From positions 15,791,729 through 15,855,728 of the forward strand of contig CP136068.1 in the NCBI GenBank assembly GCA_032622095.1: 64,000 nt of DNA. The letters run 5' to 3'. The number at the start of each line of letters is the position of its first letter. Position 1 is the first letter of the stretch. This stretch comes from Siphonodentalium dalli. Its lineage: Eukaryota > Mollusca > Scaphopoda > Gadilida > Siphonodentaliidae. Position numbers and translations under genes: made by a program. Below are positions 5,493-35,639 of this stretch, piece by piece. The notes under the pieces are model-generated. The model made no database searches. It was not told the DNA's origin and saw only the letters and a program-made list of their open reading frames with translations.

Positions 5493-5498
5493 ATTGAC
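5493..5498. repeat. Polinton target-site duplication, left copy (ATTGAC)
   Basis: ATTGAC directly precedes AGTAGTAC at 5499. The same six bases directly follow GTACTACT at 23180-23185. Six-base duplications are characteristic of Polinton/Maverick integrase. Confidence 0.92.
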
Positions 5499-6647
5499 AG
5501 TAGTACGGGGGGCTTGTTGGCTCCACATTTAAAAATAGATTTTGTGGCGGTAAAATTGGTTGTACTAAAATATTCCAATTTTTTTTTTCAAAACCCAAAT
5601 TATTTTCCAAAATTTTCAAAAAAAAAGTTTTTAAAAATCTCAAAAATTTATAATGAGTTTTCGGTCTCTTACTGAAAATAATCTCCGCCTATTAAATGTC
5701 GAATGTTTATAAATTATTTGCGTGTAATATCTTTTGTTATTGGCCAACTATTTTTGTTCAAACAAATTTTAAATATTTTTTCATGAAACTCTGTTAATTT
5801 TATTAATCGATGTTTAGATACCAATTATATGTGTATGGACTGGTCCGAGTCGCTGTAATTTTGGACATTGACACTCTAGGTATGAATGCATACATTCCAG
5901 TGTTTATCATCAGACGCAGTCCATACATCATATAATTGTCTCCACAATACCTGAAATAATTTGACGCCATTACTCTTACATAAATAATAAAGAGCGTTTA
6001 TTCTTTACTTCTCTATCCCCATGAAGTTATTGAGTATATGACACGTGTGCATTATCGCGAATTATAAATTTTTGAGAGGTTGTACTATTTTGAAAGCAGT
6101 CACGAGCGGACGAAGATCGTGATGCGAAATTACTACCCCGAATGAACTGACATATTCGATGGAACAAATTTTCAAATTATGTACACACACACATAATCAC
6201 ACGCGTCATTGGGGTAACACTGTATAGGTCGAAAAGAGTGACACCTTGGATAAATTTACCAAATGACTGCTATTATATCTGTTGACAGCTATGAGTGTTT
6301 CGACTAGTTTGATGTTAGCTCTCACTCGCGTGTCTGAACATCATTACCTGTTTAACGGGATATGATCGCGTAAGGTTGATAAGCTGTGTCATTGTTAGCA
6401 TTAACGCGATAATTAGTTATCAAAAATATGTATACATAATACGTACATGTGATAAGACACTCAATAATAGAAGTTGCCTTTGTGTTGTTGTTATAACAAC
6501 ATTACGTAATAACCACTTATAGACCTATTCATACTTAAGCTCATATATAATCTTATATAATGTTGCCTCATCTGTGCTAACTATGTTAGGTAGTTATGGT
6601 ATACAAATATCTATGACGAAGCTTCCTTTTATGCATGTTCAGACACG
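5499..6647 (+). repeat. Polinton left terminal inverted repeat
   Basis: The reverse complement is found at 22021-23179. Matching landmarks include AATAAAGAGCGTT (5986), the segment around the hexamer CACGAGCGGACG (6101) and the inner end GCATGTTCAGACACG (6633-6647). The outermost 150 bp is A/T-run rich. It contains TATATAA-type sequences (near 6553) but no gene. Confidence 0.93.
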
Positions 6648-6920
6648 TTTGATGTTAGCTCTCGATAGCGTATGAAACTCTGCTAATTTTATTAATCGAT
6701 ATTTAGAAATAGCTCTATACCAATTGCATGTGTGTAGCTGTTCACATTAGATTTTTTAGGTATTTATTCTCGAAAATGCCAGAGTGTTCAGAGACGTTCG
6801 ATGTTTGTTATCGCTCGCGTATGAAACTCTGTTAATTTTATTAATCGATGTTTAGAAATAGTTTTATACCAATTGTAGATGTGCAGCTGTTCACATTTGA
6901 TTTTAGGTATTTATTCGCGA
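6648..6920 (+). repeat. Direct repeats of a TIR sub-segment inside the left TIR
   Basis: Two copies of about 135 bp (6650-6780 and 6790-6920) share ATGAAACTCTGTTAATTTTA, TCGATGTTTAGAAATAG, GCAGCTGTTCACAT and GGTATTTATTCGCGAAAA. Part of the unit also occurs in the TIR at 5786-5840. They lie just upstream of the first ORF and may form its promoter region. Confidence 0.7.
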
Positions 6921-7952: not shown

Positions 7953-8638
7953 ATGGGGTCAACTAACCATAGCGCCATACCATTTGAACCTTGTTCTAGT
8001 ATTTGCATCAATGGACCAACTGGTTCTGGTAAGACGAGATGGGTCTACAGATTCCTACAAAATCTTAGTGGAATGTATTCTAGAGATCCACCTAAGAAAA
8101 TAATGTACTGTTACGGTATTTATCAAAATTTCTATGATGAAATTGAATCATCAATCGAAAATTTGGTCATGCATCAAGGATTACCTACCCAAACAGAAAT
8201 CGAAGAATTTGCTGATGGTAAACATAATATGTTAATATTAGACGACTTGATGCATCGTATTATTGACCAAAAAGAGATTGAATTACTATTTACGCAGCAA
8301 CTCATCATCGCTGTCTTTCGGTGCTATTTATTTCACAAAATTTATACGCACAAGGCAAGGCTGTGAGAACTATAGCCTTAAACACAGGATATCTAATTTT
8401 ATTCAAAAATTTGAGGGATGGATCACAAATTTCCACATTGGGTAGACAATTGTATCCCGGTAAATCTAAAGTACTCATTGATGCATACAAGGATTGTATG
8501 AAGAAACCATTTGCGTATCTTATAATAGATATGTCCCCTCACACTGAGGATAAATACAGACTACGAACAGACGTATTTCCCAACCAAGACACTATAATTT
8601 ACGTACCTACTATTATCGATTATTACGTAAGGAGTTGA
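7953..8638 (+). pseudogene. Genome-packaging ATPase (FtsK/HerA, A32-like), one frameshift
   Basis: ATPase that would pump the element's DNA into capsids, of the kind shared by Polintons, adintoviruses and giant-virus A32 proteins. The ATG at 7953 opens a frame with Walker A GPTGSGKT (residues 21-28) and Walker B NMLILDDLM (~residues 91-99). That frame ends at 8366. The conserved C-terminal half, with ISQNLYAQGK and LFKNLRDGSQ, continues in the next frame to 8638. The break lies near 8290-8330. Total length of about 228 codons is normal for the family. Both halves are well preserved, so the lesion is recent or an assembly error. Confidence 0.9.
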
Positions 8639-8916: not shown

Positions 8917-9297
8917 ATGGAGTCTATGAAGAAAACTGTTTTGATCCCGTATGAAAGATATATGATGTACACAGAAAAAAGTGAACACAAAAAAGTTTCA
9001 TCGGAGCCTGATATTGAACACAGCGACATCTCGGCAAACAATAGTAGCCATTCTGACGAAATGAATAAAGAAAGGGACCCGATGAATAATCAGATTGTTA
9101 ATACAGTTCAAGCGACTGAAACTCAGGAGGCAATCGAAAAATCAGGAGTTAACACATCTAATAATACATCGAAAAAGACACACACTAAGCAAAGAAAAAA
9201 GAAAATAAGAGAGATTAAGCGTGAAATATCTAGACCTCCGGGTATAATCGCCTGTAGACTGACTAAGATAAAGAAGAAACGTTGGATATTGCTGTGA
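8917..9297 (+). CDS. Small Polinton protein with VLIPYERY motif
   Basis: 126 residues from the ATG at 8917. The N-terminus has MKKTVLIPYERYMMYT, a hydrophobic-proline-aromatic motif that recurs in Polinton/adintovirus proteins of unknown role. The middle is polar and probably disordered (S, N, E, T rich). The C-terminus is Lys/Arg rich (KQRKKKIREIKREI) and ends with a short conserved-looking tail (RPPGI...KKKRWILL). It starts 24 nt after the previous gene and stops 5 nt before the integrase ATG. A DNA-associated core or minor virion protein is plausible, but this is inference. Confidence 0.55.
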   Translation: MESMKKTVLIPYERYMMYTEKSEHKKVSSEPDIEHSDISANNSSHSDEMNKERDPMNNQIVNTVQATETQEAIEKSGVNTSNNTSKKTHTKQRKKKIREIKREISRPPGIIACRLTKIKKKRWILL

Positions 9298-9302
9298 ACA
9301 AT

Positions 9303-10411
9303 ATGGCCGATTGGAAAGATTATTTGAGTTCTATTTATTTTAATCCGGGTCATCCTGCATCGTACTCAGGAGCTACAAAGTTGTATCAGACTGTAAAATC
9401 GGAAAATAAGCACATCATTTCCAAGCGCGAGATTGTGGCGTGGCTACAAAATCATGAAAGTTATTCCCTAACAAAAAGTGTTAGACGAAAATTCCTGAGG
9501 TCTCGTGTTATTGTAAACGCTTCTGACAGTCAATGGGATGGAGACCTCATGGATATGAATGATGTTTCCAAAGACAACGACAATTACACGTACGTGTTAA
9601 TAATGATTGACATTTTTTCTAGGAAGCTATGTTGCGAAGCTATAAAGAGAAAAACTGCAATTAATGTGATCAATGCTATGAAACATATATTTGAATGTGG
9701 AAGAACCCCTCGACTCCTCCGAACGGACCGCGGTTCGGAATTCACAAACAAACGGGTCAAAAGTTACATTCAGGGTCTTCATATATCTCAAATTTTTACG
9801 CAAAACGAAATGAAAGCCAATTATTCGGAACGAGTCATAAAAACTATAAAACATAAGATTTCACGTTATATGATAAAGCATAATAATGCTAGATATATCG
9901 ACATTCTACAAGATATTGTGAAAAGTTATAACCATACCATACATCGTTCGTTGGGTAACACCCTGACTCAATAACGATTGAGAATGAAGATGAGTCTCGC
10001 CTAGATCAGTGGTTAATAAGACAGAAGGGTGGCGTTAAAAGTAAATTGAAGAAAAAGTTCAAATACAATGTAAATGATATCGTTAGAATATCACATACCA
10101 AAGCAGTTTTTGACCGAGAATTTTCTCAGAAATGGACTGGAGAGTTGTTCAAAGTGACTAAGAAGTTTTACAGGCAGAACATACCCGTGTATACATTGAC
10201 AGATTTCTTGGATGAAGCCATTGAGGGCGCTTTCTACGAGTCAGAACTTCAAAGGGTGCGCGTTGATGACGATACAGTTTACAGAATTGATAAAATTGTC
10301 AAAAAGAGGAAACGAAAGGGTCAAACTGAAGTCATGGTGCACTGGCATTCATGGCCTGACAAATTTAATTCCTGGATTTTAGAGTCCGATGTCGCCAGAT
10401 ATCAAAATTAA
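9303..10411 (+). pseudogene. Polinton integrase (rve/DDE) with chromodomain, one frameshift
   Basis: Retroviral-type integrase that inserts the element and makes the 6-bp duplication. From the ATG at 9303 there is a Polinton-type N-terminal region (YFNPGHPASYSG, AWLQNHESYSL) followed by the catalytic core. The DDE residues are visible: D in QWDGDLMDM, D in LRTDRGSEF and E in NYSERVIKTIK. This frame stops at 9974. The neighbouring frame carries on from about 9970 through an SH3-like region (FKYNVNDIVRIS) to a chromodomain (YRIDKIVKKRKRKG, VHWHSWPDKFNSW). So there is one frame break near 9955-9972. The chromodomain would bind modified histones and guide insertion. Confidence 0.92.
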
Positions 10412-10886
10412 TAAGAGTAAGCTATCCACGGGAACCATTACAATCATGGATAATAGAACAGGTACCTTGACGAATATGTTTCAAACAGAACGCGGTCGTC
10501 TACATATGAATCTCCTTAAATGGATAGGAATTACTATTATGGCAATAACTCTGTCACTACCATTTATTTTAGTTCCAAAGAAGATACCGCGTGAGCCGGT
10601 TGACTATGAATTACTTCATACTAATATGTCACACCCCAATGATTACGAACAACACCCCTGTGGTTTCGTGAAAAAGTGGACAATACGATCAAACATTACT
10701 GTTACATTATGTAATAATCAAGGACACATTTATACAGACATTAGGCGAGTTGTGAATAACACTCCGACGATTATAAGTATTCCGTATAACCAGTGGTCTG
10801 ACTTCAAGTATATATTCAGTGATGTTGATAAAACTATAAGAGAAGAGATGAATATTGATTCTCTTTTGAAAAAAATTAGAAACTAG
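10389..10886 (+). CDS. Single-pass membrane protein with PC4-like C-terminal region
   Basis: ATG at 10389 overlaps the integrase end by 23 nt; a second ATG (10446, residue 20) may be the true start. One transmembrane helix is at residues 42-62 (LLKWIGITIMAITLSLPFIL). The rest resembles the PC4/SUB1 single-strand-DNA-binding fold: a strand pattern ITVTLCNNQGHIYTDIRR (residues 103-120), then SIPYNQWSDFKYIF (130-143), like the QW...L helix of PC4. A membrane-anchored PC4-like protein is odd, so the similarity might be structural coincidence. It is followed by the penton-like gene after 4 nt, placing it within the virion gene block. Confidence 0.55.
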   Translation: MSPDIKINKSKLSTGTITIMDNRTGTLTNMFQTERGRLHMNLLKWIGITIMAITLSLPFILVPKKIPREPVDYELLHTNMSHPNDYEQHPCGFVKKWTIRSNITVTLCNNQGHIYTDIRRVVNNTPTIISIPYNQWSDFKYIFSDVDKTIREEMNIDSLLKKIRN

Positions 10887-10890
10887 TCAT

Positions 10891-11328
10891 ATGGATAATT
10901 ATTATCTGTACCTGACTAGCGACGATTCCATTGATAAATATCCAGATAATCGTCCTCTCGACTTCACAATAGAGTTACCTGGTGTATTAATATTGGAAGG
11001 AACGTGGTTATGTTGTTTGAAAGACATAAATATAACTGATCATATAGACACGGATTTATTATATATTTGCTCGGACATATGTGGAGAATCAATAGCTTGT
11101 GACACATCATCCCCCATCCTCATGGTTATAAAGAGAGACACACGTGATACGGGTGATTGGCGGAGTTTTGAGGACTCATTCTACATAAACGTAAGGCAGG
11201 ATAAACTTCAGCGTCTCAGGATTTTTATAAGAGGCGATAAACTTTCTAAAATAAATGCAGAAAAAAGAGTGACTTGTACACTACATTTGAAGAAACATGT
11301 CGATCACGTATATTCCAAACGATATTGA
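10891..11328 (+). CDS. Penton-like minor capsid protein (single jelly roll)
   Basis: 145 residues. The N-terminus matches the Polinton/adintovirus minor capsid pattern: YYLYLTSDDSIDKYPDN, then DFTIELPG and LEGTWLCCLKDI (residues 4-46). The C-terminal part, DKLQRLRIFIRGD followed by a TCTLHLKK strand, matches the family's final strands. Related proteins form the capsid vertices; the single jelly-roll fold is family knowledge, not visible here. At 145 residues it is shorter than many relatives. It overlaps the next ORF by 32 nt. Confidence 0.75.
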   Translation: MDNYYLYLTSDDSIDKYPDNRPLDFTIELPGVLILEGTWLCCLKDINITDHIDTDLLYICSDICGESIACDTSSPILMVIKRDTRDTGDWRSFEDSFYINVRQDKLQRLRIFIRGDKLSKINAEKRVTCTLHLKKHVDHVYSKRY

Positions 11329-11620
11329 AAAGTGGAGAAAACATTTCAGGGACATGATTAATGGGAAGTTAACGCCAGATAATGAGGGTCGCTACTTTAT
11401 TGACAGAACTCAAAATAGTGATAGTGAAGAAGACGTTCTAAAACCACATATTAACGTAGTGACGCCCGTCGCGCAAGCGATTGAAATGGCTAAGGCCGAA
11501 GTTGCAGAAAATAAGTTGACACACGCACGTAAGGCGTCCAAAAAAAACAATAAGAGAGTGTTAGCTAGCGGTTTGGCTAATAATCCTAAGAAAGTGAAAA
11601 CTATATTCGATAAATCATGA
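11297..11620 (+). CDS. Small Polinton virion-type protein
   Basis: 107 residues with ATG at 11297 inside the end of the penton gene. The N-terminal WRKHFRDMINGKL and the central INVVTPVAQAIEMAKAE are patterns I recall from the small ORF just upstream of the capsid gene in other Polintons. The C-terminus is basic (KASKKNNKRVLASGLANNPKKVK). Such proteins have been compared with adenovirus minor or core proteins, but the function is not established. It ends in an ATGA overlap with the capsid gene. Confidence 0.65.
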   Translation: MSITYIPNDIEKWRKHFRDMINGKLTPDNEGRYFIDRTQNSDSEEDVLKPHINVVTPVAQAIEMAKAEVAENKLTHARKASKKNNKRVLASGLANNPKKVKTIFDKS

Positions 11621-12879
11621 ATGAATACAGACAGTACCATACCGATAAATTGGCATTATTTGAATCGCCGGCGGTTGACAGTGGAATACAATCGACAGAA
11701 TGGATAAATTACAGACCCGTGAATCAACTGACAGACACTGCAGCGTTGGAGTTCAATATTCCCGCCATGGCCACAACCTACATGGACCTCAAACGCACAT
11801 TGCTACTTCTCAAACTCAAAATAACCAAGCAAGATGGTTCGGCTCTAACCGTTAATGACGATGTGGGTCTGATAAATGCACCCCTACATTCAATATTTTC
11901 GCAGGTCGATTTGAATATACATCAAGTTCCCGTGAGTCAAGTTGGGCCGAATTATCCATACAAAGCATATTTCGATGTACTCTTAGAAACTGAACGTAAG
12001 GAACAGCTACATGGACAAGCGTTCGAAAAGGACACGGCAGGTGGTATGGACCTGGCAGATTCGAAAAGCGGGAACTCTGGCCTGTATTACAGGTCCAAAA
12101 CAACCTGTACTAGTCAAATAATGGATATTATGGGATCAATTCAGCTTGACTTCTTCCAACAGGACAAATTACTACTATATGGTCTCCCGCTCACTTTAAA
12201 ATTCTGGCAGACAAGAGATGTTTTTAGACTGATGTATGCGGGAACCACTGAGACATACAAGTTGAAAATACAGGAAGCTAATTTGAGACTAGCGACTGTG
12301 AAAGTTAACCCGGGTGTATTACTCAGTCATACTGAGTCACTCAAGAAAAGGAATGCGTGTTATCCTTTTTCAAAATCTATTATAAAGACGTATACAGTGT
12401 CAAAAGGTGCATTCAGTTTGGGAGAAGATAATCTATTTCAAGGAGACGTACCTAGTAGCTGTATTATTGGCTTAGTATCATCAAAGGCTGAAAGCGGTTC
12501 ACGCGATAAGAACCCGTTCAACTTTGCGACTTTTGGATGCAACTTCGTCGGATTTTACGTCAATGGGCAGTCTATGCCCGCCCAAGCACTACAACCGAAC
12601 TTTACCAGTAAGGAATATGTAGAAGCTTACAATACGATAATAAAAGATGTGAAACGAAAAGCCGTTCATATTACTTATGAGGATTATGCGAAAGGTTATT
12701 GCATATATAGGATAAACCCGCAAGGAATTAATCACGATAGAGTCATACCTCAGAAAGGTCACACACGCCTTGAGATTAAATTCTCATCGGCTTTAAAAGA
12801 CAATTGTACGGTAATTGTTTATGCCAAATTTCCTGCCGCTCTCAAAGTTGACGAGAGTCGTAAAGTTTGCATTGAATAA
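11617..12879 (+). CDS. Major capsid protein (double jelly-roll hexon type)
   Basis: 420 intact residues. It resembles the F54H12.2-like proteins scattered through animal genomes, which are recognised as Polinton/adintovirus major capsid proteins: LEFNIPAMATTYMDLKRTLL near residues 45-64, then PLHSIFSQVDLNIH, YPYKAYFD and a C-terminal LEIKFSSALKDNCTVIVYAKF. The double jelly-roll fold and hexon role are family knowledge. The start overlaps the previous stop as ATGA and the end overlaps the protease start as TAATG. It is the only large core gene without a frame break. Confidence 0.9.
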   Translation: MNEYRQYHTDKLALFESPAVDSGIQSTEWINYRPVNQLTDTAALEFNIPAMATTYMDLKRTLLLLKLKITKQDGSALTVNDDVGLINAPLHSIFSQVDLNIHQVPVSQVGPNYPYKAYFDVLLETERKEQLHGQAFEKDTAGGMDLADSKSGNSGLYYRSKTTCTSQIMDIMGSIQLDFFQQDKLLLYGLPLTLKFWQTRDVFRLMYAGTTETYKLKIQEANLRLATVKVNPGVLLSHTESLKKRNACYPFSKSIIKTYTVSKGAFSLGEDNLFQGDVPSSCIIGLVSSKAESGSRDKNPFNFATFGCNFVGFYVNGQSMPAQALQPNFTSKEYVEAYNTIIKDVKRKAVHITYEDYAKGYCIYRINPQGINHDRVIPQKGHTRLEIKFSSALKDNCTVIVYAKFPAALKVDESRKVCIE

Positions 12880-13324
12880 TGAATACACGCGGACTCATGA
12901 GGGCGATAAATAGTTTCACAAACCATAATGAGATAGATGTTTGTCCCGTAGACAAATTACTCTTTATATCCAATATCCCCGGATGTATATAGTTAACACT
13001 GACGAGAGTAGCCAACCTGGACGCCACTGGACATTGATGATATTCCATGAACATAAACTATCAGAGTTCTTCGACCCGATGGGGTTAAAACCCGAGTGTT
13101 ACAACGGACGATTTAAACACGTGTTGTTATTGAATGGACCTCGTCACGAGTGTAATGATTACAGATTACAGGGTTCTAATATATGCGGTCCCTATTGCAT
13201 ATACTTTGCATTCTATAAACTGTGTGGATACAGTCTAGAAAATATAATGAGGCGTTTCAGTGCCAATAATTATATGTATAATGATTTAATTATTAAGGAT
13301 TTTATGTTGAAATATATTCTGTAA
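12879..13324 (+). pseudogene. Adenain-like cysteine protease, one frameshift
   Basis: Capsid-maturation protease of the adenovirus/Polinton (C5-type) family. A short N-terminal piece from the ATG at 12879 stops at about 12992. The catalytic part lies in the neighbouring frame (12941-13324). It shows His in GRHWTLMIF, Asp in EFFDPMG, and Gln then Cys in LQGSNICGPYC, in the order expected for this family. The frame break is near 12975-12990, next to a CCCC run, so a sequencing error is possible. AATAAA at 13381-13386 is a likely poly(A) signal for the cluster. Confidence 0.85.
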
Positions 13325-13607: not shown

Positions 13608-14123
13608 TTATTCTGAAAGTAATTCAAGTTCACATATAGTAGGATATACAATATTTAACATCTGCTTTTCACTTTTAATGCCTGTAATCACAATTTTTCC
13701 ATTATGAAAGCATGTAAAATGTATTTTCTCACGTCGGAACATTGCCGCAGGGAACAGCTCTGATTCGTAAGAACATTCCATAAGTTTCACTAAAACGTTT
13801 AAGTCAAGTTTTCCATTTAACTGACAAAATGCAGACATTTTTATGGAATGTAATCTCACGCGCCAACCACATTTTTGAATATGTCGAGCGTATCGACGCA
13901 GTCGAACGCGTGTCTGTTTGACATTATCAGAACGCCCGTTAACACATATTTTACCAGTGCTAAACACGAGGCAACATCCACCGAATTTAGAATGTTTCCA
14001 TACAACTCCGCTAAACTTTTTGGAATTGTATTCAATGTTCGAACAGCCGAGTGTCAAATCCCTTAGATTAATAGAACAGTTCAAATCTGCAGAACATACG
14101 ACATTAGTTATTTGTAGCATCAT
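13608..14123 (-). CDS. TATA-binding-protein homologue encoded by the Polinton
   Basis: 171 residues, about the size of a TBP core with no N-terminal extension. Two repeats are visible (residues ~3-85 and ~92-165). Repeat 1 has NIEYNSKKFSGVV and LVFSTGKICVNG. Repeat 2 has SYESELFPAAMFR and FTCFHNGKIVITG. The four phenylalanines that kink TATA DNA in TBP have counterparts at F37, F54, F124 and F139. RRYARHIQKCGW matches the RKYARVVQKLGF helix region. An in-frame stop lies upstream, so ATG 14123 is the start. The stop codon overlaps AATAAA. It would bind TATA boxes in the nucleus and recruit host RNA polymerase II factors. It is divergent from host TBP, so not a recent host copy. Confidence 0.87.
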   Translation of the reverse strand: MMLQITNVVCSADLNCSINLRDLTLGCSNIEYNSKKFSGVVWKHSKFGGCCLVFSTGKICVNGRSDNVKQTRVRLRRYARHIQKCGWRVRLHSIKMSAFCQLNGKLDLNVLVKLMECSYESELFPAAMFRREKIHFTCFHNGKIVITGIKSEKQMLNIVYPTICELELLSE

Positions 14124-14202
14124 AGGAGTAATGTTTAGATGAATGTCTGCATCCGGTTAATCAAACATGTTCTATCACCGTTGGGGCAGCATTCCATACA
14201 TC

Positions 14203-14745
14203 TTAAGATCCTTCCTGGTTTTGGTGATCGTCGGTCAAATAGCACTGCACAGTCTGATCAATTTCAGGAATATTAGCACACAGGACGAATATAGCTCCAG
14301 CTAGTTTTTCAAATTGGTCGAATGTCGGAGATATTCCGTATTTGGTTGCACACAAATCATCTGAATGTTCAGGCAGCCAATACCTGCGAATGTCAACACG
14401 CGGGATGCCGCTCTTTATAGTAATGAAGAAATTCCCACCGATATGACGTCTCATGAATACATCGGATTCCCCGGTACGATAACTGACCACTTCTTGATGT
14501 ATACCTGATAGGTAAGATTTCAACTCTTTGAATCTCCTTAGATTTAATGTTATTCCAGATTTTGTCGGAAATTTTTGGCCTGCATAACCTTCACCGCACT
14601 CTCTTATGTGGATATACAAGTTTCCCAGGAATCGACCGTCAAATAGGAAAATGTCATTTCCTAACGGGACTAAGCATTGTGGATGGAACGCTCTCTCGTT
14701 GGTTTCATTCCGTTGGTTTCCTTCAACATCGGCTTGATCATTCAT
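14203..14745 (-). CDS. Tandem PC4/SUB1-like transcription coactivator
   Basis: 180 residues with two PC4-like units. Unit 1 (residues ~30-82): DGRFLGNLYIHIRECGEG, KFPTKSGITLNLRRFKELKS. Unit 2 (~98-165): HIGGNFFITIKSGIPRVDIR, RYWLP, ATKYGISPTFDQFEKL. The order beta strand - VDIR - (P/A)TK.GI - helix is the PC4 signature. PC4 binds single-stranded DNA and supports RNA polymerase II initiation. It lies 79 bp upstream of the TBP-like gene on the same strand, so the two may be expressed together. The start, ATG 14745, follows A-rich DNA beside a GC-rich minisatellite. Confidence 0.8.
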   Translation of the reverse strand: MNDQADVEGNQRNETNERAFHPQCLVPLGNDIFLFDGRFLGNLYIHIRECGEGYAGQKFPTKSGITLNLRRFKELKSYLSGIHQEVVSYRTGESDVFMRRHIGGNFFITIKSGIPRVDIRRYWLPEHSDDLCATKYGISPTFDQFEKLAGAIFVLCANIPEIDQTVQCYLTDDHQNQEGS

Positions 14746-14814
14746 TTTTTATTTGAACCTGGAAAATAAGAAAACAAACATTACTTATCAGTTACACACC
14801 GGGAGTACAAAGTC

Positions 14815-15020
14815 CGAAAGGAGTCCGCCCGCCCTGGGGGTCCGCCCCACGCCCCGCCCTGGGGGTCCGCACTGGGGGGTCCGGCCCCGCCCTGGGGGTC
14901 CGCACTGGGGGTCCGCCCGCCCGCCCTGGGGGTCCGCACTGGGGGGCCGCCCCCGCCCGCCCTGGGGGTCCGCACTGGGGGTCCGACTCCGCCCCGCCCT
15001 GGGGGTCCGCCCTCCCTCGC
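14815..15020. repeat. GC-rich minisatellite in the divergent promoter region
   Basis: About six units containing CCGCCCTGGGGGTCCGC alternating with ACTGGGGGTCCG, in a host and element that are otherwise AT-rich. It separates the divergently transcribed PC4-like gene (-) and the 15066 gene (+). The repeat leaves frames open on both strands; I reject those as genes. Confidence 0.85.
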
Positions 15021-15065
15021 ATACTCAATAAGAATAAGAAAATTGAGTCATTGAGTCAGTTCATT

Positions 15066-15562
15066 ATGGAGAGAATACTACCCGCAGAAATACAGGAGAA
15101 AATATACAATCAGCTAATTGACATGTCAACTATAAATCCAGAAATAAAAAAACAACTACTACACAATTGGTTTATAAGAGAAATTAAAATAATACTGAAG
15201 AATATAGATGAAGGATATTTTCCTGTACAGCGATTGAAATCTTTGATTGCGAGGTCTGAATTTGAAACTGATTTCTTACAGGATATATTGAATCAAATGT
15301 TTTCGAATCGTTGGATATTTAGAGGCGTTCCTAAAAACAAAATACATGACATTCGTGAACTTATTGGAGATAACTTTGTGAGATTTTGCAGAATACCGAG
15401 ACTGGGTTTTCAATCAGAGAAGTTTTGAAGAAATACTTAACAGAGGCGTGATTTTGGATTACATTTCTACAAGTAAATCGAAATATATTTCAGAATTAGA
15501 GAATGAATTAATATGGTCATTCGGAATAATCTGGAATTATGGTGACTCTTCGTTGAGAAAAT
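15066..15562 (+). pseudogene. Unknown Polinton protein, probably frameshifted
   Basis: From ATG 15066 a 120-residue frame ends at 15428. The next frame is open from about 15416 to a TAA near 15562 with similar composition (SFEEILNRGVILDYI, YISELENELIWSFG), suggesting one ~165-residue protein broken near 15415-15430. The start (ILPAEIQEKIYNQL) resembles the opening of F-box motifs, which would link to ubiquitin ligases. That is only a suggestion. TATAAAGAGCGTTAA (15612) follows the gene. Confidence 0.5.
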
Positions 15563-15972: not shown

Positions 15973-18795
15973 TCAATATCCATATGGCAGAGTATCCATG
16001 TTATCCTGGAGTCTGCGTTTTGTATACACAACTCGGTACTGCTTCTCCTCAGATCTGTTATATAATTTTCTTTTTCCTTTGGACCTGCATATTTTTCGAG
16101 GATTGGTTGTGGTGATGGGCACTGTACTTCTGGATTCTAACAGATCTTTAATCGTGTTGAAATTGATGAACTGTGAATTTTCAAAGTTCAAAGAGAAACC
16201 CCGAACTTTACACGTCTCTTTAGCTTTATTGGTTCTATAAGCGTAATTCTTGGGTCCTCCAGAAACAAATTCCTCGATGTATTCATCCGGGTCTAGCTCA
16301 CTAGTCAACTGTCCCAAATAGTCACCCAGTAGGGGATTAATTTGATCCTCGGTGCTGCTGAATACACAACTATCCGTGTCGTAATATAACACTCTTCTGT
16401 CCAAGGAATGAATAACTTCATATAACATTAATCGCGCGTGACACGTCGTGAACGTGGCCAAATATATGCTATTCGATGATCCACACGGCGCATAGTCATT
16501 TCTATAAGTCCACTCCATTTGAAGAATGTCATCGGTTATGACATGAAATTTTTCCATTTGTTTCATTGGATTTGAAATGAGTTGGAATAGATTGTCTTGT
16601 TCCGATTCATGGAAATATTCGGTCTGTTTGAAATTCTGGTTTTGACCCCATTTTCCCAAAAAAGAATTCAGCATCAGCTTGGATATTTGGCGTAATCCTG
16701 GATTTCTTTCGATGCTTTCTCTGTCCAGCAATATACCTTCATTGTCTTTATAGTCTGTGATGTATTTGTCCATGTCTTCGGTAGATTTTATCCAATCCGG
16801 AGGACCGCTAGCCTGCTGCTTGAACTTTAAGAATGTGTTTATATATTCAGTGAATAATCCATTTTGTTGTCCATAGTCTGACGTTTCGGTCCAATGGTAT
16901 ATTTCATATATTTTGAGAATCTTGTATCCTACTTTGATAGCTGTCTCCAGTTCAGGAATACACCAAACACCAGTCATAGCTCTCTGTTGGCACGTACACG
17001 TGCAAGGTCTTTGATTTTCATTATCAGCACAAGTCCTGCACAGTGGAAACTTCAGTTTACCGTTGGATCGATACGGTAATACTGGGTGATAGAGTCCATT
17101 AGGTGGTAAAATCTTGACTTGAGCTATTCCGAAGTAATCCTTAAGTTCTGTAATGTCATCGCCCAAAATGATTTTCGGGTGCCCAACCGGGTATCGAGCG
17201 TATTTGAGCACATTTGGATAGAGCGACGTGAAGTCAAAATAGTGTATTTTCTCACCAACGTCAGCTTTGTAGTGTAATTTAGTGGCATTTGTTCTGCCGC
17301 CGAAGAAACTGTCTCTAGGCTCTAGTCGTTCAACAATATCCAAACTAGTAATGAAATCACGAAGCTCCGGATTAGTCTTTAGGGCAGCGACGAACTCGTG
17401 TTCCCAAATGCACACATATTTCAGGCCTCGACTTTCTATATACTTCTTCTTTTTCTGTGTCAGTCCGTATAATTCATTAGGTGTCTGGTTGGTTATCGGA
17501 TTCTTGACTACGTCTCTATCGTGACTCAGACAAAGTTCACATCCATGGAATTGACATCCGTGAAATTCGAATGCCGTGTTTAACTCTTCACAATATCCAT
17601 CCAATCTGTACTTTGCACCATCGAGTTTCTTTTCACGTCCGTTCAAAGCGTGAGTTATGTGGATTTTATCTTTGAACATCATCCATTCCAGCCATTGAAT
17701 CGAACTTTTGTTGTATTGATCTTTATATGATGTCTTGGGGACGCGAGCTATCTGTGATTTGAGAAATTCTTTCTCTCGAATTTGTACGTCGTGTTCATCT
17801 TCAAGTTTTGTTTGTTGAACCCATTCACCTTTGTATAAAATCGACAAAGTTCCATCTTTACATTTAGCTGGAAGCCACGTTTTCCCGTCGGTACTTAGGC
17901 GCACTCTCCATTCCTCGTCGACGAACTTCGTTCTGAATATCCCCATACATACCGATGCGATGGTAACGTATTGGAATGGATCAACGGCACCAACCAGTTT
18001 GAACTTCATATCGCCAGAAACCTCGTCAATTACGGGTTGTATATTTCCAGTCGCGTTCATGATGTGGGTTCTGAATTTTATGCAAGCTTGTCTCAAAATA
18101 TTGACATCACTGCGACAATAATCCAATAATTCTTTCTTGAAGATGAAAACTGCATTTGTTTGAGCCGCGTGCCATTTCGTGAAGTCTTTTCGTTCAGCCA
18201 CACCCATATAGTCAGCACCGTAATATTTGGCATCCGGATAGGGTCCTTCATAATTCTGGTTGGCTGGTTTATTGAAAAAGTGCGGGAACCATCCTTTTTT
18301 CTCGCCATCAAGACCGAATGTTTTTGGTAACAGTGCCAAATTCATTGGTAGAAAGCTGAGACTGTCCAGTACTTTGATATGAAGATCTTTTTCCACATAT
18401 AGGTACATCAATTTGGATCCATTATATATAACTTTGGGTCTCAATGATTGATCAATGAGATATTCCATGAGAAAATATCCATCGTAACCCTTGAAGTTGT
18501 GAGCCAGTGCTATGAATCCCGTATGTTGTTCAGAGAATAACCATTTTCCAAACTTTTCACCGGTATCAGGACCACTAAATATAACCTCGCGGAGTCCGCA
18601 TGTATCCAGACATAAATTTCGGTCATTCTTCTTCTTCTTCGCATCACCGTCGTTACAAGCATCACATAGAGGACCGCAATTTCTACAGGTCGGTTTCGTT
18701 TCCAGCGATTCATGCATGCATTCATAGCAAGCTGTTTGGGCGACGAGGAAGTTGGGTGTATGCTGAACTTTTCCGCACCATGTTTTTAAACAGTT
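15973..18795 (-). CDS. Protein-primed DNA polymerase B, exon 2 (Exo II/III and polymerase)
   Basis: About 940 codons. The exon starts after a 3' splice site (TACTTTTCAG) at 18796, with more Cys-rich zinc-type residues before the first in-frame Met at 18717. Exo II is LAHNFKGYDGYF and Exo III is YCRSDVN. Polymerase motifs: A DFTSLYPNVLKY (~17205-17245), B KLMLNSFLGKWG (~16645-16682) and C YYDTDSCVF (~16360-16390). All catalytic Asp residues of A and C are present. This enzyme replicates the linear element from a protein primer; the terminal-protein role is family knowledge. No frame break is seen in this exon. Confidence 0.93.
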   Translation of the reverse strand, partial: NCLKTWCGKVQHTPNFLVAQTACYECMHESLETKPTCRNCGPLCDACNDGDAKKKKNDRNLCLDTCGLREVIFSGPDTGEKFGKWLFSEQHTGFIALAHNFKGYDGYFLMEYLIDQSLRPKVIYNGSKLMYLYVEKDLHIKVLDSLSFLPMNLALLPKTFGLDGEKKGWFPHFFNKPANQNYEGPYPDAKYYGADYMGVAERKDFTKWHAAQTNAVFIFKKELLDYCRSDVNILRQACIKFRTHIMNATGNIQPVIDEVSGDMKFKLVGAVDPFQYVTIASVCMGIFRTKFVDEEWRVRLSTDGKTWLPAKCKDGTLSILYKGEWVQQTKLEDEHDVQIREKEFLKSQIARVPKTSYKDQYNKSSIQWLEWMMFKDKIHITHALNGREKKLDGAKYRLDGYCEELNTAFEFHGCQFHGCELCLSHDRDVVKNPITNQTPNELYGLTQKKKKYIESRGLKYVCIWEHEFVAALKTNPELRDFITSLDIVERLEPRDSFFGGRTNATKLHYKADVGEKIHYFDFTSLYPNVLKYARYPVGHPKIILGDDITELKDYFGIAQVKILPPNGLYHPVLPYRSNGKLKFPLCRTCADNENQRPCTCTCQQRAMTGVWCIPELETAIKVGYKILKIYEIYHWTETSDYGQQNGLFTEYINTFLKFKQQASGPPDWIKSTEDMDKYITDYKDNEGILLDRESIERNPGLRQISKLMLNSFLGKWGQNQNFKQTEYFHESEQDNLFQLISNPMKQMEKFHVITDDILQMEWTYRNDYAPCGSSNSIYLATFTTCHARLMLYEVIHSLDRRVLYYDTDSCVFSSTEDQINPLLGDYLGQLTSELDPDEYIEEFVSGGPKNYAYRTNKAKETCKVRGFSLNFENSQFINFNTIKDLLESRSTVPITTTNPRKICRSKGKRKLYNRSEEKQYRVVYTKRRLQDNMDTLPYGY

Positions 18796-19899
18796 CTGAA
18801 AAGTAATAATTGAACGTTTTAACCTCTAGCTTTATTGATAATAAAAACAAAATAAACGTCTACACTTTGTCACTAATTATTTAAAAAAAATAATGTTTTT
18901 TTATAGGTTCAACGTTAATAAAGAGCGTTGACGTATTACTATTGTTTGTGGGTTGACCCTAAAATTACTCGTTCCAATCTACGTGTCAATATTAAAAATG
19001 TATGATGATCAGACCATCGACATATAGCCTGTATCGTTGACGATTCAAGCACGCAGATATCAAGTTCAATAAAGTTAAAAATTATATATTATGTTAGTTT
19101 ACCATATAACAATTACAAAGCTCTTTTCACAAAAAAATATGTTTCACATTTTTCAATGTGTCAAGAATTAAAAGTTAATTAGTCGGTTTAACAACTGTGA
19201 CTCAGTTTAGTTGAATTTTAATTTTGTGACCCTTAACTTTGGTAGAATTCAAGTATGTAATTGTTATATGGTAACCTCACACGTAGATAAAGTAACAGCT
19301 AAAGAGCGTTCCTCGATAATCTAATATAATTTTAAAAATAAAAGAGTGTCTCTACTTATACGCGCCGCTAATAAAGAGCGTTGACGTATTAATATTGTTT
19401 TGTTGGTTGACCCTAAAAATACTCGTTCCAATCTACGTGTCAATATTAAAATGTATGATGATCAGACCATCGACATATAGCCTGTATCGTTGACGATTCA
19501 CGAACTCGGATATCAAGTTCAATAAAGTTAAAAAATGATATATTATGTTAGTTTACCATATAACAATTACAATGCTCTTTTCACATAAAATATGTTACAC
19601 ATTTTTCAATGTGTCAAGAATTAAAAGTTAATTACTCGGTTTTAACATCTGTGACTCAGTTTAGTTGAATTTTAATATTGAGACCCTTAACTTTGGTCGA
19701 ATTCAAGTATGTAATTGTTGTATGGTAATCTCACACGTAGATAAAGTAAAAACTAAAGAGCGTTCCTCGATAATCTAATATAATTTAAAAAATAAAAGAG
19801 CGTCTCTACTTATACGTGCCGATAATAAAGAGCGTTACGTTATCGTGATTTCGACTGTAATGTGTTACATATATATATTACAATTAGGTTAAGACTCAC
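18796..19899 (-). other. Intron in the polymerase gene (GT-AG, 1104 bp)
   Basis: Donor CAG|GTGAGT at 19902-19894 and acceptor TACTTTTCAG|A at 18796 are canonical. The reading phase (0) is preserved across them, joining the Exo I exon to the Exo II exon inside a Cys-rich region. The intron contains two copies of a 453-bp tandem duplication. Confidence 0.8.
18900..19835 (+). repeat. 453-bp tandem duplication with AAAGAGCGTT motifs
   Basis: Copies start at AATAAAGAGCGTT 18917 and 19370, with a third partial start at 19824, a period of about 454 bp. Shared landmarks include GTTGACCCTAAAA, ATGATGATCAGACCATCGAC and TTTACCATATAACAATTACA. Divergence is a few percent. It lies within the polymerase intron. 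Confidence 0.85.
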
Positions 19900-21644
19900 C
19901 TGACACCTAGCACATTTCTTGCATATATGATCCTCTTTACAGTCCTGGCAATCCTTTGTATGTAAAGGTGAATATCCTTCTGAACATTCCAGTATATCTT
20001 GTTGAAAGGTTTCAAAGTCAAAGTAACAGAATTTAGCTCTTTCATTGTCAGTAACAGGAGGTATGGCCCTTACATAACATTCGTGTCCTGCCATTGTGTA
20101 TTTATCACGCGATCTACAAAATGTTTCTTCGCACACGTGTTGATTCGGACGTCTTTTCCGTCTCTCCATGACTTTTGTACAGTCCAAGTATTTCCACCAT
20201 TTCTCGCAAGGAGCTGTTGTTTCTTTCGAAGATCTGTCAATAGGTTTTGCTTTATGACGCACGAAACATTGATGAGACATACACGTCATGTTACAATCTG
20301 AACAATGTTCTTTGTTTTCACTTTGGTCGCATTTATCACTTTTACACACAAACAGGTGCGTTCACAATAATGCTTTCCTTTGGTTGAATAATGTTTTAAG
20401 CAATGCACACAGAAATATGCTGCACTAAAGAATCCTGTTATGGATTGAATAGCGTGAAAATGTTCATTATCAGTCAGATATAAATATATCACGGGTCTTT
20501 CTGCACCGTCTGTAGGCGCGCTGGTAATGAATTTATTACCTAGTCTAGCACTAACGACTAGTATTGTCAAATTCAGAGTGTCCTCGAATGCTTTTAGGTC
20601 TGCTAAACTGGCTGGTCTGTCTGTTGGTACACCGGCGATGTCACTAATTACTTTGGCTAATTTTCCTTGCTCAGTACGTGTTTTGGTCCTCATATGTTTG
20701 TAATAATTGATCGCTACTTTTCTGTAGTCCATGATGAGCTGTAAATTACTTCTGGTTCCTTTATTCTGGGTTATTTCTAGCCATGCATCAGGACTGCAAA
20801 TATTTAATTTACACCAACAAGTGGCGATAGCCCGAGCCATACACATATTGTCGGTATTTTCAATCGTAACGATCGATGTTTTATTTCTTAGAATATTACT
20901 TTCAGAGTGTAACGCCGTTATCCTCCGCCGTGCTCCACCTTTAGGTAACTCAATGGTGCCTATATCTATGCTGAAACTTTGATTAACAGTCAGTGTTTGG
21001 TTACTGTTCAAAACGAGTTCGATTCTGTCAATCACCGTAATAGCATTTAACGTTTGCAACGTTTGTAACGGAACTATTATGGGGTTGTCCAAACTGTCAT
21101 GGTGAATGATAACTCTGCCAAGATCATTGTCAGCCAAATTTCCACGAGCTCTTTGAATAGTGTCCTCGAACATTGAATGTAGATTCCTGTTTATGTCGAT
21201 TAACTTTTTATCTTTGTAAATTTCATCTAGTTTGATTTCATATGTTCTCTGTGTAGCCAAATTGTTTCCGAAGGTCCGTTCACTTCTTTTGCGAATGCTA
21301 TATCCGGTTATTTGATTATCAGAACTGCTGGCTGTTTGACTGTCTGATTTTATGGCTCCTTCGTCTTGATCAGGTGTATGTTCGTCTTCTCGGTTTTGTA
21401 AGCCTGATGGTCCAGCTGTATCGGGTTGTGAGTTGGTAACATCATTTTTAGGTGCATCATCTTGTCCGTATCCGATTTGGTTCGGCCATGGGTCATCTCC
21501 TGAACAAAGCGTAGATGCTTGAGCAATATCTTCATCAAGCTGATAAGCTTCTATAGCCCTGTCGTATTCTTCGATATATTGTAGAATACATTCTATCTCA
21601 TAAATTTCCTCCACTTTTAGAGGTGTCATTATTTCTTCAGCCAT
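19900..21644 (-). CDS. Polinton DNA polymerase B, exon 1 (N-terminal region and Exo I), one frameshift
   Basis: From ATG 21644. Residues ~50-120 are polar and disordered. A domain typical of Polinton polymerase N-termini follows: GGARRRITALHSES, NTDNMCMARAIA, VPTDRP. Then come a zinc-type region (YFCVHCLKHY, HYCERTC) and, in the neighbouring frame, C-x-C rich sequence and Exo I FCYFDFETFQ (~20015-20045). The frame changes near 20330-20365, so the copy is broken there. The exon ends at a canonical splice donor at 19899. With exon 2 the protein would be about 1500 residues. Confidence 0.88.
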
Positions 21645-21689: not shown

Positions 21690-22020
21690 CTATATGGGAT
21701 GAAGCTTCGTCATAGATATTTATATACCATAACCCCCGAACATAGTTAGCACGGATGAGGTAACATTATATAAGATTATATTTGAGCGTAAGTAAGAATA
21801 GGTCGATAAGTGGTTATTACGTAATGTTGTTATAACAATAACATCAAAGGTAACTTCTATTATTGAGCGTATTAGCACTTCTACGTATTATGTATACATA
21901 TTTTTGATAACTAATTATCGCGTTAATGATAACAATGACACAGCTTATCAACCTTACGTGATCATAACCCGTTAAACAACTAATGCTGTTCAGACAAGCT
22001 ATCGATATCTTAATTGAAAG
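21690..22020. repeat. Diverged second copy of a TIR segment inside the right TIR
   Basis: This resembles 22045-22335 in direct orientation (AAGCTTCGTCATAGATATTT, CATAGTTAGCACGGATGAGG, TATATAAGATTATAT, GTGGTTATTACGTAATGTTG). The right inner TIR is therefore extended by a partial tandem copy that the left end lacks. It lies just upstream of the polymerase gene. Confidence 0.8.
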
Positions 22021-23179
22021 CGTGTCTGAACATGCATAAAAGGAAGCTTCGTCATAGATATTTGTATACCATAACTACCTAACATAGTTAGCACAGATGA
22101 GGCAACATTATATAAGATTATATATGAGCTTAAGTATGAATAGGTCTATAAGTGGTTATTACGTAATGTTGTTATAACAACAACACAAAGGCAACTTCTA
22201 TTATTGAGTGTCTTATCACATGTACGTATTATGTATACCTATATTTTTGATAACTAATTATCGCGTTAATGCTAACAATGATACAGCTTATCAACCTTAC
22301 GTGATCATATCCCGTTAAACAGGTAATGATGTTCAGACACGCGAGTGAGAGCTAACATCAAACTATTCGCAACACTCATAGCTGTCAACAGATATAATAG
22401 CAGTCATTTGGTAAATTTATCCAAGGTGTCACTCTTTTCGACCTATACAGTGTTACCCCAATGACGCGTGTGATTATGTGTGTGTGTACATAATTGAAAA
22501 TTTGTTCCATCGAATATGTCAGTTCATTCGGGGTAGTAATTTCGCATCACGATCTTCGTCCGCTCGTGACTGCTTTCAAAATAGTACAACCTCTCAAAAA
22601 TTTATAATTCGCGATAATGCACACGTGTCATATACTCAATAACTTCATGGGGATAGAGAAGTACAGAATAAACGCTCTTTATTATTTATGTAAGAGTAAT
22701 GGGGTCAAATTATTTCAGGTATTGTGGAGACAATTATATGATGTATGGACTGCGTCTGATGATAAACACTGGAATGTATGCATTCATACCTATAGTGTCA
22801 ATGTCCAAAATTACAGCGACTCGGACCAGTCCATACACATATAATTGGTATAAAGCTATTTCTAAACATCGATTAATAAAATTAACAGAGTTTCATGAAA
22901 AAATATTTAAAATTTGTTTGAACAAAAATAGTTGGCCAATAACAAAAGATATTACACGCAAATAATTTATAAACATTCGACATTTAATAGGCGGAGATTA
23001 TTTTCAGTAAGAGACCGAAAACTCATTATAAATTTTTGAGATTTAAAAAAAAAACATTTTTGAAAATTTTGGAAAAAATTTTGGGTTTTGAAATTTTTTT
23101 TTGGAATATTTTAGTACAACCAATTTTACCGCCAAAAAATCTATTTTTAAATGTGGAGCCAACAAGACCCCGTACTACT
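22021..23179 (-). repeat. Polinton right terminal inverted repeat
   Basis: Inverted copy of 5499-6647, ending GTACTACT at 23179. The open frames here (62-88 codons) also follow from TIR sequence and are not genes. Confidence 0.93.
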
Positions 23180-23185
23180 ATTGAC
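23180..23185. repeat. Polinton target-site duplication, right copy (ATTGAC)
   Basis: Identical to 5493-5498 and immediately outside GTACTACT. Confidence 0.92.
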
Positions 23186-33195: not shown

Positions 33196-34250
33196 AAGGC
33201 CCTAATTTTAAATAGGCTTTTACATGGATACGATGCGACTAAACGTGAGTTTTTAGTTCAAGGGTTTTCTGAAGGCTTTCGATTGGGTTGTCAAACAACA
33301 CCTCCACTTTTGGATTCACCCAACTTGAAATCGGCTACGGAGTTTAAATCAATATTAATGGAAATAGTTAGCGTGGAACTTCATGATGGGCGTATTGCAG
33401 GACCTTTCCTTCACAAACCGTTACCTAATTTTGTTATTTCTCCGATTGGAATAGTCCCGAAAAAGTCTCCTGGACAATTTCGCATGATCCAGCATTTATC
33501 ATATCCGGCTGGTAATTCTGTCAATGACCATATTAGGCCAGATTGGAAAACCGTTCAATACTCGTCAGTACAAACTGCTATGTCATTCATGCAACAACTT
33601 CCTCGTCATTCGTACATGGTTACTTGTGACTTGGCTCATGCGTTCCGTATGAGCCAATTTCCCATAAGGACTACCATTTACTGGGTTTTAAAGTAGACAA
33701 GCATTATTATTATGACAAGGCCCTCGTTATGGGGGCTTCCAGCAGTTGCTTTCTTTTTGAAGAGTTTAGTACTCGAGTGGATGGCTTCGTCTCATCTTGG
33801 TATGCGCTCAGTCACCCACTATCTAGACGATTTTTATTGGATTTTTCATACTAAAGAGCTTGCCACGACCTATTTACAGGCTTTCTTAACGCTCTGTGAA
33901 AAGCTAGGGGTCCCGATTGCACCAGACAAGACATGTGGTCCATCGACCTGTCTCAGTTTTCTAAGCATTGAGCTTGATACCGATCAGATGATGGCTCGCC
34001 TACCGGCCGACAAACGTTTAAAATGTCAACACTTAATATATAATTTCTTACAGCGTAATCGGGTTCTTCTCAAAGAGCTGCAGTCTTTGATTGGTCTGTT
34101 AAACTTTACATGTTCAGTAGTTCTCCCAGGCAGAGTTTTCCTGCGTAGATTAATCAACTTAACAATCGGAGTAACTAAACCTAACCATCATATTAAACTG
34201 AACCGGCAAGCTAAACAGGATCTTCACATCTGGCAACAGTTTCTTCACAA
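33196..34250 (+). pseudogene. Reverse transcriptase of the YR retroelement
   Basis: In the frame ending at 33696: FVISPIGIVPKKSPGQFRMI, then HLSYPAGNSVNDHI and CDLAHAFRMSQFP, the early RT motifs with catalytic Asp. A stop and frame changes follow (33696-33775). The MGASSSCFLFEEF stretch is in one frame, and HYLDDFYW (YxDD, codons 33820-33831) is in the frame of 33712-34431. The thumb and connection region runs to about 34240. Confidence 0.85.
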
Positions 34251-34289
34251 CTTAATGGGAAGACACTGTTTCTGGACCGTCATTGGCTC

Positions 34290-34700
34290 ACCAGCGCCAA
34301 ATTGGTATTGTACACAGATGCAGCCAGTACAATTGGCTTTGGGGCAATTTTTCAGAATCGATATATTCATGGTATTTGGCATCCAGATGAAAAACAGTAT
34401 AACATCGCCGTCATGGAGCTGTATCCCATAGTTCATTGCAGTCAAAATTTAGGGGCATTTGATGAAGAACCGTTGTGTTTTATTCTATTCTGATAATTCA
34501 GCCGTAGTATCAGTCATTAATTCACAAACATCTAAAGATAAGCATCTATTGGCTTTATTGCGCCAGCTTGTGTTATCATGTTTATTAAACAACATTCTTT
34601 TCAAAGCTAAACACCTCCCCGGTATCCACAATGTGTTAAGCGATCTCCTATCCCGTTCGCAGGTATCCGAGTTCCTGAAACAAGCGAAGCCTGGTCCCAA
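34290..34700 (+). pseudogene. RNase H domain of the YR retroelement
   Basis: LYTDAASTIGFGAIF and NIAVMELYPIV (frame of 34302-34493), then FYSDNSAVVSVINSQ and LPGIHNVLSDLLSR (frame of 34459-34764). These carry the D-E-D catalytic positions of DIRS-type RNase H. One frame change occurs near 34440-34490. Confidence 0.8.
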
Positions 34701-34724: not shown

Positions 34725-35639
34725 TTGCTCGCTTCACACCTGGTTACGGCCACAAACATGCTGATTGGACAATCACTTTCCAAAAATTCACTTCGCCAAT
34801 ATGAGCTTGCTCGGGACAATAAAGTCACTTTCTGTTCAGCTCTCAATATCAACCAACAATGGCCAATACCATTGGATACCTTGTGTATTTTCGTGGCTTA
34901 TTTGTTTACGAAGCAATCTGCTCCAACCTCCATTGTTTCCACTCTTACAGCATTTTCATACTGGCACAAAATTAACATGCTCCCTGACAACACCCATTTA
35001 TTTTTGATAAAGAAAATCATATCTGCTACCAAAAGGCTTTGCCCGGTCATGGATATTCGGTTACCTATTACTTTGCCCCTACTTCACCAACTTATCGCGG
35101 CATTGCGTTACACCACCGATAACTCTTACGATCGTGCCTTAACAGCAGCTCTGTTTACATAAACATTTTACGCACCTGCACGCGTTGGTGAATTTTGACC
35201 CAGCACATTCACGGAGGCCTCCTCAGTAGTTCAAGTACATGACTGCTCAATTTCAACTCAATTGGCAACCATTATTTTCCGCCATTTCAAGCACAATATC
35301 CGAGGGGCACCTCATTCAATTCAAATACGGGCTCAGCCTAATGCAGTATTTTGTCCGGTTGTCACATTGCGGAATTACTTGACACATCGTCCTTTGACAG
35401 CCGGTCCTTTATTCTGTCGATCCGACCTTCGACCGGTACTTCGTCGCAATTTTGATAAAACGCTACAGCGCACACTCACCTTTTGTCAGGTCGATACTAC
35501 TGTGTTCAAAGGGCACTCTTTCCGTATTGGTGCGGCCAGTCTAGCTGCACAAATGGGTTTTTCGGATCTTCAGATCCAGCAACTCGGCCGCTGGAAAACC
35601 GATGCATTTCGTAAATATATTCGGCAAACACCTTTGTAA
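34725..35639 (+). pseudogene. Tyrosine recombinase of the YR retroelement
   Basis: The N-terminal core-binding domain (34725-35162: SLSKNSLRQYELARDNKV, VAYLF, ISATKRL) ends at a stop just before the catalytic Arg region (FYAPARVGEF, ~35167-35195). After a frame change the catalytic C-terminus is intact at 35262-35639. It has HSFRIGAASLAAQMG (H-x-x-R), LGRWKTDAFRKYIR with the Trp position and nucleophile Tyr. It would insert the circular cDNA copy. Confidence 0.85.

Follow-up and report, generated by a model that had tools for sequence, protein, structure and literature searches.

The window, a 64,000-nucleotide stretch of contig CP136068.1 from the scaphopod mollusc Siphonodentalium dalli, holds a 17.7-kb element that is a Polinton (Maverick). 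Two adjacent minus-strand genes, one encoding a TATA-binding protein (TBP) homologue and the other a PC4-like protein, sit between its protease candidate and its family B DNA polymerase (PolB), inside the terminal inverted repeats (TIRs). The features of the element, in window coordinates, are as follows.

5493..5498, no strand: left 6-bp target site duplication (TSD) ATTGAC, a direct repeat outside the TIR
5499..6676, plus strand: left TIR, from the TIR alignment
7953..8638, plus strand: probable packaging ATPase, split over two overlapping ORFs, with P-loop matches in the first ORF only
9282..10411, plus strand: integrase (rve; INT) with a C-terminal chromodomain, in two ORFs (PF00665, PF00385)
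10891..11328, plus strand: capsid-cluster ORF of 145 aa, a putative minor capsid protein judging only by its position
11617..12879, plus strand: major capsid protein (MCP) candidate of 420 aa, recognised from homologues, with no Pfam match
12941..13324, plus strand: adenovirus-type protease candidate (PF00770, E 0.021, below cut-off)
13608..14123, minus strand: TBP-like gene, 171 aa, two TBP lobes (PF00352, PDB and Foldseek matches, residue map)
14203..14745, minus strand: PC4-like gene, 180 aa, two PC4 units of which the second is weak (PF02229, PC4 in PDB)
15051..15428, plus strand: small ORF between PC4 and PolB, present in other copies too
15973..18717, minus strand: main part of PolB (PF03175, E 4e-52)
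19840..21644, minus strand: two ORFs upstream of PolB, from the ORF list, with no Pfam match
21989..23179, minus strand: right TIR, from the TIR alignment
23180..23185, no strand: right 6-bp TSD ATTGAC, a direct repeat outside the TIR

The integrase ORFs were identified by Pfam through the rve domain (PF00665, E 1.7e-13) and the chromodomain (PF00385, E 1.4e-7). The first ATPase ORF (7953-8366) gave a ResIII match at E 8e-4 and other AAA matches, all below the Pfam cut-offs, and the second (8321-8638) gave no Pfam match. Homologues of the MCP candidate number 53 and come from metagenomes and from bivalves, including Mytilus, Saccostrea, Pinctada, Argopecten and Pecten; four of the bivalve proteins carry the name F54H12.2-like, which we take to mark Polinton capsids. 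Neither Pfam nor a further profile comparison returned a profile match for the candidate; the MCP alignment was built on 40 of the 53 homologues. The 145-aa ORF had no profile match either; in 17 copies, the window counted, 60% or more of its length is present, and three of these copies contain stops. No Pfam family scored above cut-off on the small ORF at 15051-15428. The polymerase is presumably protein-primed, as its family suggests, and the two ORFs at 19840-21644 are probably its N-terminal region, given their position and their Cys/His-rich appearance.

The TIRs are ~1.2 kb long and share 1144 identities across 1193 aligned columns. Half of their mismatches (16 of 32) are packed into the 56 bases of 5579-5634, where 14 are A/T, one is A/G and one is G/T, and this stretch includes a run of seven T facing seven A in the right TIR. 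With the mismatches so clustered and so biased to A/T, divergence of the TIRs does not serve well as a clock. The original prediction had described the two genes as cargo inside the TIRs of a dated insertion; their place inside TIRs flanked by a TSD holds, and the TIRs do not allow a precise date. Elsewhere in the window, two plus-strand matches lie ~1 kb apart, one to a reverse transcriptase (33712-34428, E 8e-4) and one to a tyrosine recombinase (35262-35636, E 0.0036), both below cut-off; together they are possibly a DIRS-like retroelement.

The minus-strand ORF at 13608-14123 encodes a two-lobed TBP. PF00352 matches it in two stretches with E 2.3e-31 (107.9 bits against a cut-off of 22.9), and its best PDB match is the TBP of E. 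cuniculi (E 2.6e-22). TBPs account for 35 of the 36 PDB matches up to E 10, the remaining one standing at E 7.1. An AlphaFold2 (AF2) model with 61 sequences as input reached a mean pLDDT of 91.3, and all 44 Foldseek matches of this model at E <=0.001 were TBPs or TBP-containing entries; matching to TBPs gave E 1.8e-15 and moderate TM-scores of about 0.66, with an rmsd of about 4.4. The four DNA-kinking phenylalanines are found at F37, F54, F124 and F139. Profile, model and residue map thus bear out the original prediction of a TBP core homologue that retains all four. The copy in the window is itself slightly shortened: its gene measures 513 nt against 522 nt in nearly all other scored copies (the best 150 of 458 candidates), and it lacks three residues of the first C-lobe strand, equivalent to human 255-257, which are present in 20 of 20 fetched copies. 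The window's own TBP may therefore be impaired through these three missing residues.

The neighbouring protein matches PF02229 in two stretches at E 1.5e-11 (44.1 bits against a cut-off of 25). Scored alone, the N-terminal 94 aa remain above the cut-off with 29.2 bits, and the C-terminal 96 aa fall below it with 17.6 bits (E 0.0027). The second unit holds DIRRYW...KYGIS...FEKL, resembling DIREYW...RKGIS...WSQLK of the PDB PC4 chain, and the PDB match of the whole protein is to a PC4 named as a transcriptional coactivator (E 0.023). Its AF2 model is poor (pLDDT 36.9). Of the two-unit PC4-like protein first proposed, the whole-protein match and the first unit are therefore firm, and the second unit is weak. 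A third PC4-like protein, suspected by eye at 10389-10886, was rejected, as it had no PF02229 match; a profile comparison with the PC4 protein also gave no match, in a comparison insensitive enough that PC4 unit 1 against unit 2 receives just 1% probability. Directly upstream of PC4, at 14770-15030, lies a G+C-rich minisatellite-like tract of GGGGGTCCGC-type units, seen by eye and poorly conserved between copies.

Copies of both genes are abundant in the host genome (2.23 Gb in 9 contigs). The best 150 of 458 TBP candidates show 94-100% identity, and all 150 are full length or one residue short, with a stop in 5; among the best 150 of 620 PC4 candidates 6 have a stop. Both lists are ordered by score and hence enriched in intact copies. 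When the two are compared by eye for contig C1, a PC4 match lies 84-87 bp from 18 of 20 TBP matches, and the other two have no partner among the PC4 matches listed. We fetched 20 copies with about 5 kb on each side, picked from the 150 scored to span the range and including two loci with closely spaced TBP matches. PC4 adjoins TBP in all 20, and is uninterrupted and stop-free in 16; the four damaged copies carry an insertion (L014), only 131 aa (L026) or a stop (L012 and L019). On the far side of TBP, all 20 copies hold pieces of the protease and capsid ORFs; beyond PC4, 18 of the 20 hold PolB pieces, the exceptions being L010 and L014. At two loci, TBP, PC4 and the small ORF recur as tandem units, three at a spacing of about 2.77 kb in L022 (1833-8515) and two at about 2.87 kb in L023 (3895-7908). 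A further search with a relative of the window TBP (P0033) revealed no second TBP-bearing family, the best match reaching 51% among the best 150 of 426 candidates, many of them at loci already found with the window TBP.

Between subfamilies, pN/pS was 0.27-0.31 for PC4, 0.21-0.25 for the capsid gene, 0.16-0.23 for PolB and 0.20-0.38 for TBP; the TBP values, like the TBP stop count, are underestimated, since similarity to TBP was the criterion for finding the copies and the other genes played no part in it. Within groups, TBP gave 0.16 in A, 0.87 in B and 0.90 in C, the groups having been set by eye after the fetched copies were viewed. B and C consist of near-identical copies with few changes, for which drift of inserted copies is expected. 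The genes have been under purifying selection between subfamilies, and the element has been amplified with the gene pair kept.

Outside this genome, a database of 5.8 billion proteins yielded 60 homologues of the TBP with 39-58% identity, from 78 candidates, and these mostly keep its length and interface residues. Those with a species name are proteins of Mercenaria mercenaria and two from bacterial metagenome-assembled genomes (MAGs), of Candidatus Thiodiazotropha taylori and Sedimenticola sp. Both bacteria belong to bivalve symbiont groups, so host DNA in the bin is the likely source. A 9776-bp contig of the Sedimenticola sp. MAG lists both a TBP (P0044, ABW072_02025; 46% identical to that of the window) and a capsid protein (P0081, ABW072_02035; 43%), a link that rests on the locus tags and on the same contig size in both listings. 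By eye, no other pair of equal contig size was seen across the 60 TBP and 53 capsid rows, whose remaining contigs are mostly short. Judged from these records, a TBP gene and a capsid gene stand close together in a second, diverged element. No homologue of the PC4 protein was found outside the host genome at E <= 1. Of the gene pair, which the original prediction proposed to look for in other elements, relatives elsewhere were thus found for TBP, alongside a capsid gene on one MAG contig, and not for PC4.

Searches of IMG/VR returned no relative of the TBP or the capsid, each used as a single sequence and as an alignment, or of PolB used as a single sequence, and the GTDB contigs held no relative of the TBP or the capsid. 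With a mixed TBP alignment as the query, three loci (L029-L031) were found on large viral contigs that look like giant viruses when judged by eye. On one of these, a 132-kb IMG/VR contig that is probably a giant virus, the TBP gene (L031, 5935-6594) is flanked by large ORFs resembling RNA polymerase subunits, again by eye.

The origin of the TBP was addressed with a tree of 28 family rows, i.e. the window and 27 of the 60 homologues, hand-picked to spread over the list. The family forms one clade (100/100) on a long stem, apart from host, human and giant-virus TBPs. A placement together with human TBP is rejected (p-AU 0.016). Placements with archaea (p-AU 0.10) and with the TBPs of the three large viral contigs (p-AU 0.18) are not rejected, although the tree does not show the latter. 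The animal TBP-like factor TBPL1/TRF2 appears as a possible sister (90/88), a placing that is unsure because long branches meet there and an assumed TBPL1 sequence was used. In that sequence, kinking phenylalanines that the family keeps are lost. From the host we recovered the N-lobe of TBP, encoded by an exon on contig C6 (155354090-155354272) with a second, short exon nearby. It is canonical, being identical to human TBP at 71 of 81 positions and to the element TBP at 27 of 79. In a tree with 15 family rows (the window and 14 of the 60 homologues), the family excludes the host TBP at 100/99.

These results bear on a single recent capture of the host TBP as the source of the gene. That the element protein is a recognisable TBP by both profile and structure match would suit such an origin; the low identity to the canonical host protein, its exclusion from the family and the rejected grouping with human TBP all speak against it and leave it with a negligible probability. 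As far as the N-lobe of the host TBP is concerned, recent capture is refuted on these sequence comparisons. A tree with host, archaeal and giant-virus TBPs, as proposed along with the original prediction, gives the gene many relatives in a single clade rather than a recent host ancestor.

The residues at the functional surfaces were compared across 61 family members. The kinking phenylalanines, in a numbering that we partly presume, are kept at F197 in 53 (Tyr in 6 more), F214 in 58, F288 in 59 and F305 in 50. In place of the usual N-lobe stirrup stands a nearly invariant W-x-H-x-x-I-G-G-x-C, and in 58 of 61 the C-lobe residue Asn257, which we take to contact DNA, has become Thr. Taken from the alignment, these changes suggest a different DNA preference or different regulators. 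The N-lobe regulatory residues R235 and R239 are retained in 61 and 58 members, and the glutamates E284 (C.L3.2) and E286 (C.L3.4) in 56 and 55; in human TBP both glutamates contact TFIIB, as stated in PMC7221094. No TFIIB or polymerase-subunit profile was matched in the scanned ORFs of the element, a search that a very divergent TFIIB could escape. Retention of the glutamates, of R235/R239 and of the phenylalanines, together with the lack of a recognised TFIIB or polymerase, points to the use of host TFIIB and RNA polymerase II (Pol II).

Among 12 regions upstream of genes, no shared k-mer rose above shuffles (P 0.16, 0.28 and 0.42 for 6-, 7- and 8-mers), two of the 12 start positions, those of INT and of the small ORF at 15051, having been set a few nucleotides past the ATG. 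The motif WATAAGAG occurs seven times in the whole window, and six of these lie on the plus strand of the 9.2-15.2 kb part of the element (9204, 10410, 10835, 11226, 11549 and 15173). Four of the six precede INT, the 145-aa ORF, a 107-aa ORF and the MCP by about 55-105 nt. At least seven occurrences were seen in 15 of 100 whole-window shuffles, the motif was picked after looking, and the k-mer test gave P 0.28; it is a possible late promoter motif, as a lead only.

Both genes belong to the element, they encode a TBP and a PC4-like protein, and the TBP retains its interface residues. The original prediction, in which the pair together steers RNA polymerase II to promoters of the element, is partly supported. 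The explanation that we favour, and consider reasonably probable, is that this Polinton lineage carries a promoter-recognition factor as a standing gene and with it recruits host TFIIB and Pol II to promoters of its own; here promoter specificity, TFIIB binding and the role of PC4 are what we infer. The element TBP would bind and bend element promoters and would probably have its own sequence preference, since the kinking phenylalanines are kept and several residues that face the groove or form the N-lobe stirrup differ. It would then bind host TFIIB via the two conserved C-lobe stirrup glutamates, and TFIIB so bound would bring in host Pol II. The tandem PC4 protein is most likely a built-in dimer on single-stranded DNA, which could open element promoters or coat the strands displaced during protein-primed replication; the data are compatible with either role. 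A broader version, to which we give somewhat less than even odds, holds that an animal Polinton lineage acquired its own core-promoter factor before it diversified into the forms now present in bivalves and metagenome samples and has carried it ever since, and that a changed DNA preference combined with host TFIIB would give a 17.7-kb element private Pol II promoters, which a fused PC4 pair would open.

PC4 may instead serve as a single-strand binding protein for protein-primed replication and have no part in transcription, with TBP acting alone on promoters or bending DNA for replication or packaging. In favour of this, the element encodes a PolB, its scanned ORFs contain no other recognised single-strand binding protein, PC4 folds bind single-stranded DNA in general, and TBP and PC4 may have no joint function, since 60 homologues were found for TBP and none for PC4. 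Against it, the PC4 matched in PDB bears the name of a transcriptional coactivator and the two genes adjoin in 20 of 20 copies, although in a single genome common descent could by itself account for such adjacency. We regard this as a substantial minority possibility.

The remaining alternatives concern TBP itself. It could be an inhibitor that sequesters host TFIIB or sits on host promoters and so damps host or antiviral transcription, with no role at element promoters; the retained TFIIB-contact glutamates (56 and 55 of 61), the replaced N-lobe stirrup and the absence of a significant promoter motif would all fit, but a pure TFIIB decoy would not need the DNA-facing phenylalanines that most of the 61 members keep, and we think this unlikely. 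Less probable still is a relic or passenger gene with no present function in the element. The three-residue deletion in the window copy and the weak constraint among near-identical copies (pN/pS 0.87 in B and 0.90 in C) would be expected of such a gene, yet pN/pS between subfamilies is 0.20-0.38, a value lowered by ascertainment bias, and the 60 homologues mostly keep their length and interface residues.

Polintons stand near the root of several eukaryotic DNA virus groups, and we are aware of no description of the way in which they regulate their transcription. This small element, which has a canonical-looking TBP and neither a TFIIB nor a polymerase that could be recognised, would be a minimal case of viral Pol II redirection at the first step. 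Its TBP family tests how far a TBP can drift from its usual partners and still work, and the gene offers a marker for tracing this Polinton lineage.

In the literature retrieved for polinton, Maverick or adintovirus, mostly non-subscription, TBP is not described as Polinton cargo in the text available. By term search, PMC11071308, PMC3671162, PMC10328495, PMC10120064, PMC8097293 and PMC4028283, all Polinton/Maverick-related, contain neither TATA nor TBP, and the four of them searched for PC4 lack it as well; in PMC12220804 the matches are unrelated. TATA-binding proteins are mentioned, in PMC10675990, for algal elements of putative mirusvirus origin, which are not Polintons. The claim that TBP and PC4 fall outside the standard Polinton gene lists agrees with these sources, none of which names TBP as Polinton cargo, nor PC4 in the part of them where it was sought. 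The TBP-PC4 pair is a real and unusual Polinton gene pair, its TBP drawn from a diverse family and the pair kept in the sampled copies.

With Polintons/Mavericks and adintoviruses the window element shares TIRs, a 6-bp TSD, PolB, an rve integrase with a chromodomain, candidates for capsid, protease and ATPase, and its size of 17.7 kb; it differs in carrying TBP and PC4 genes. Its PC4-like protein resembles PC4/SUB1 in matching PF02229 above the cut-off over the whole chain, and differs in having two units per chain, the second below the cut-off when scored alone. Giant viruses and African swine fever virus are far larger than the element. Their TBPs, including B263R of the latter, share with it a virus-borne TBP fold, as the structural matches in BFVD also indicate (PMC7221094, PMC5825884). 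According to PMC7221094, however, viral TBPs usually have a viral TFIIB alongside, their C.L3.2 glutamate is conserved in about 40% and their N-lobe signature is lost, whereas in the element no TFIIB was found and its family keeps this glutamate in 56 of 61 members as well as R235/R239. The herpesvirus TBP mimics, such as ORF24 of KSHV, resemble the element in the working logic proposed for it, being DNA virus proteins that mimic TBP and bring host Pol II to viral late promoters (PMC12529657, PMC4893493); the element differs from them in being a small Polinton whose protein is a two-lobed TBP recognisable by sequence, with the TFIIB-contact residues retained.
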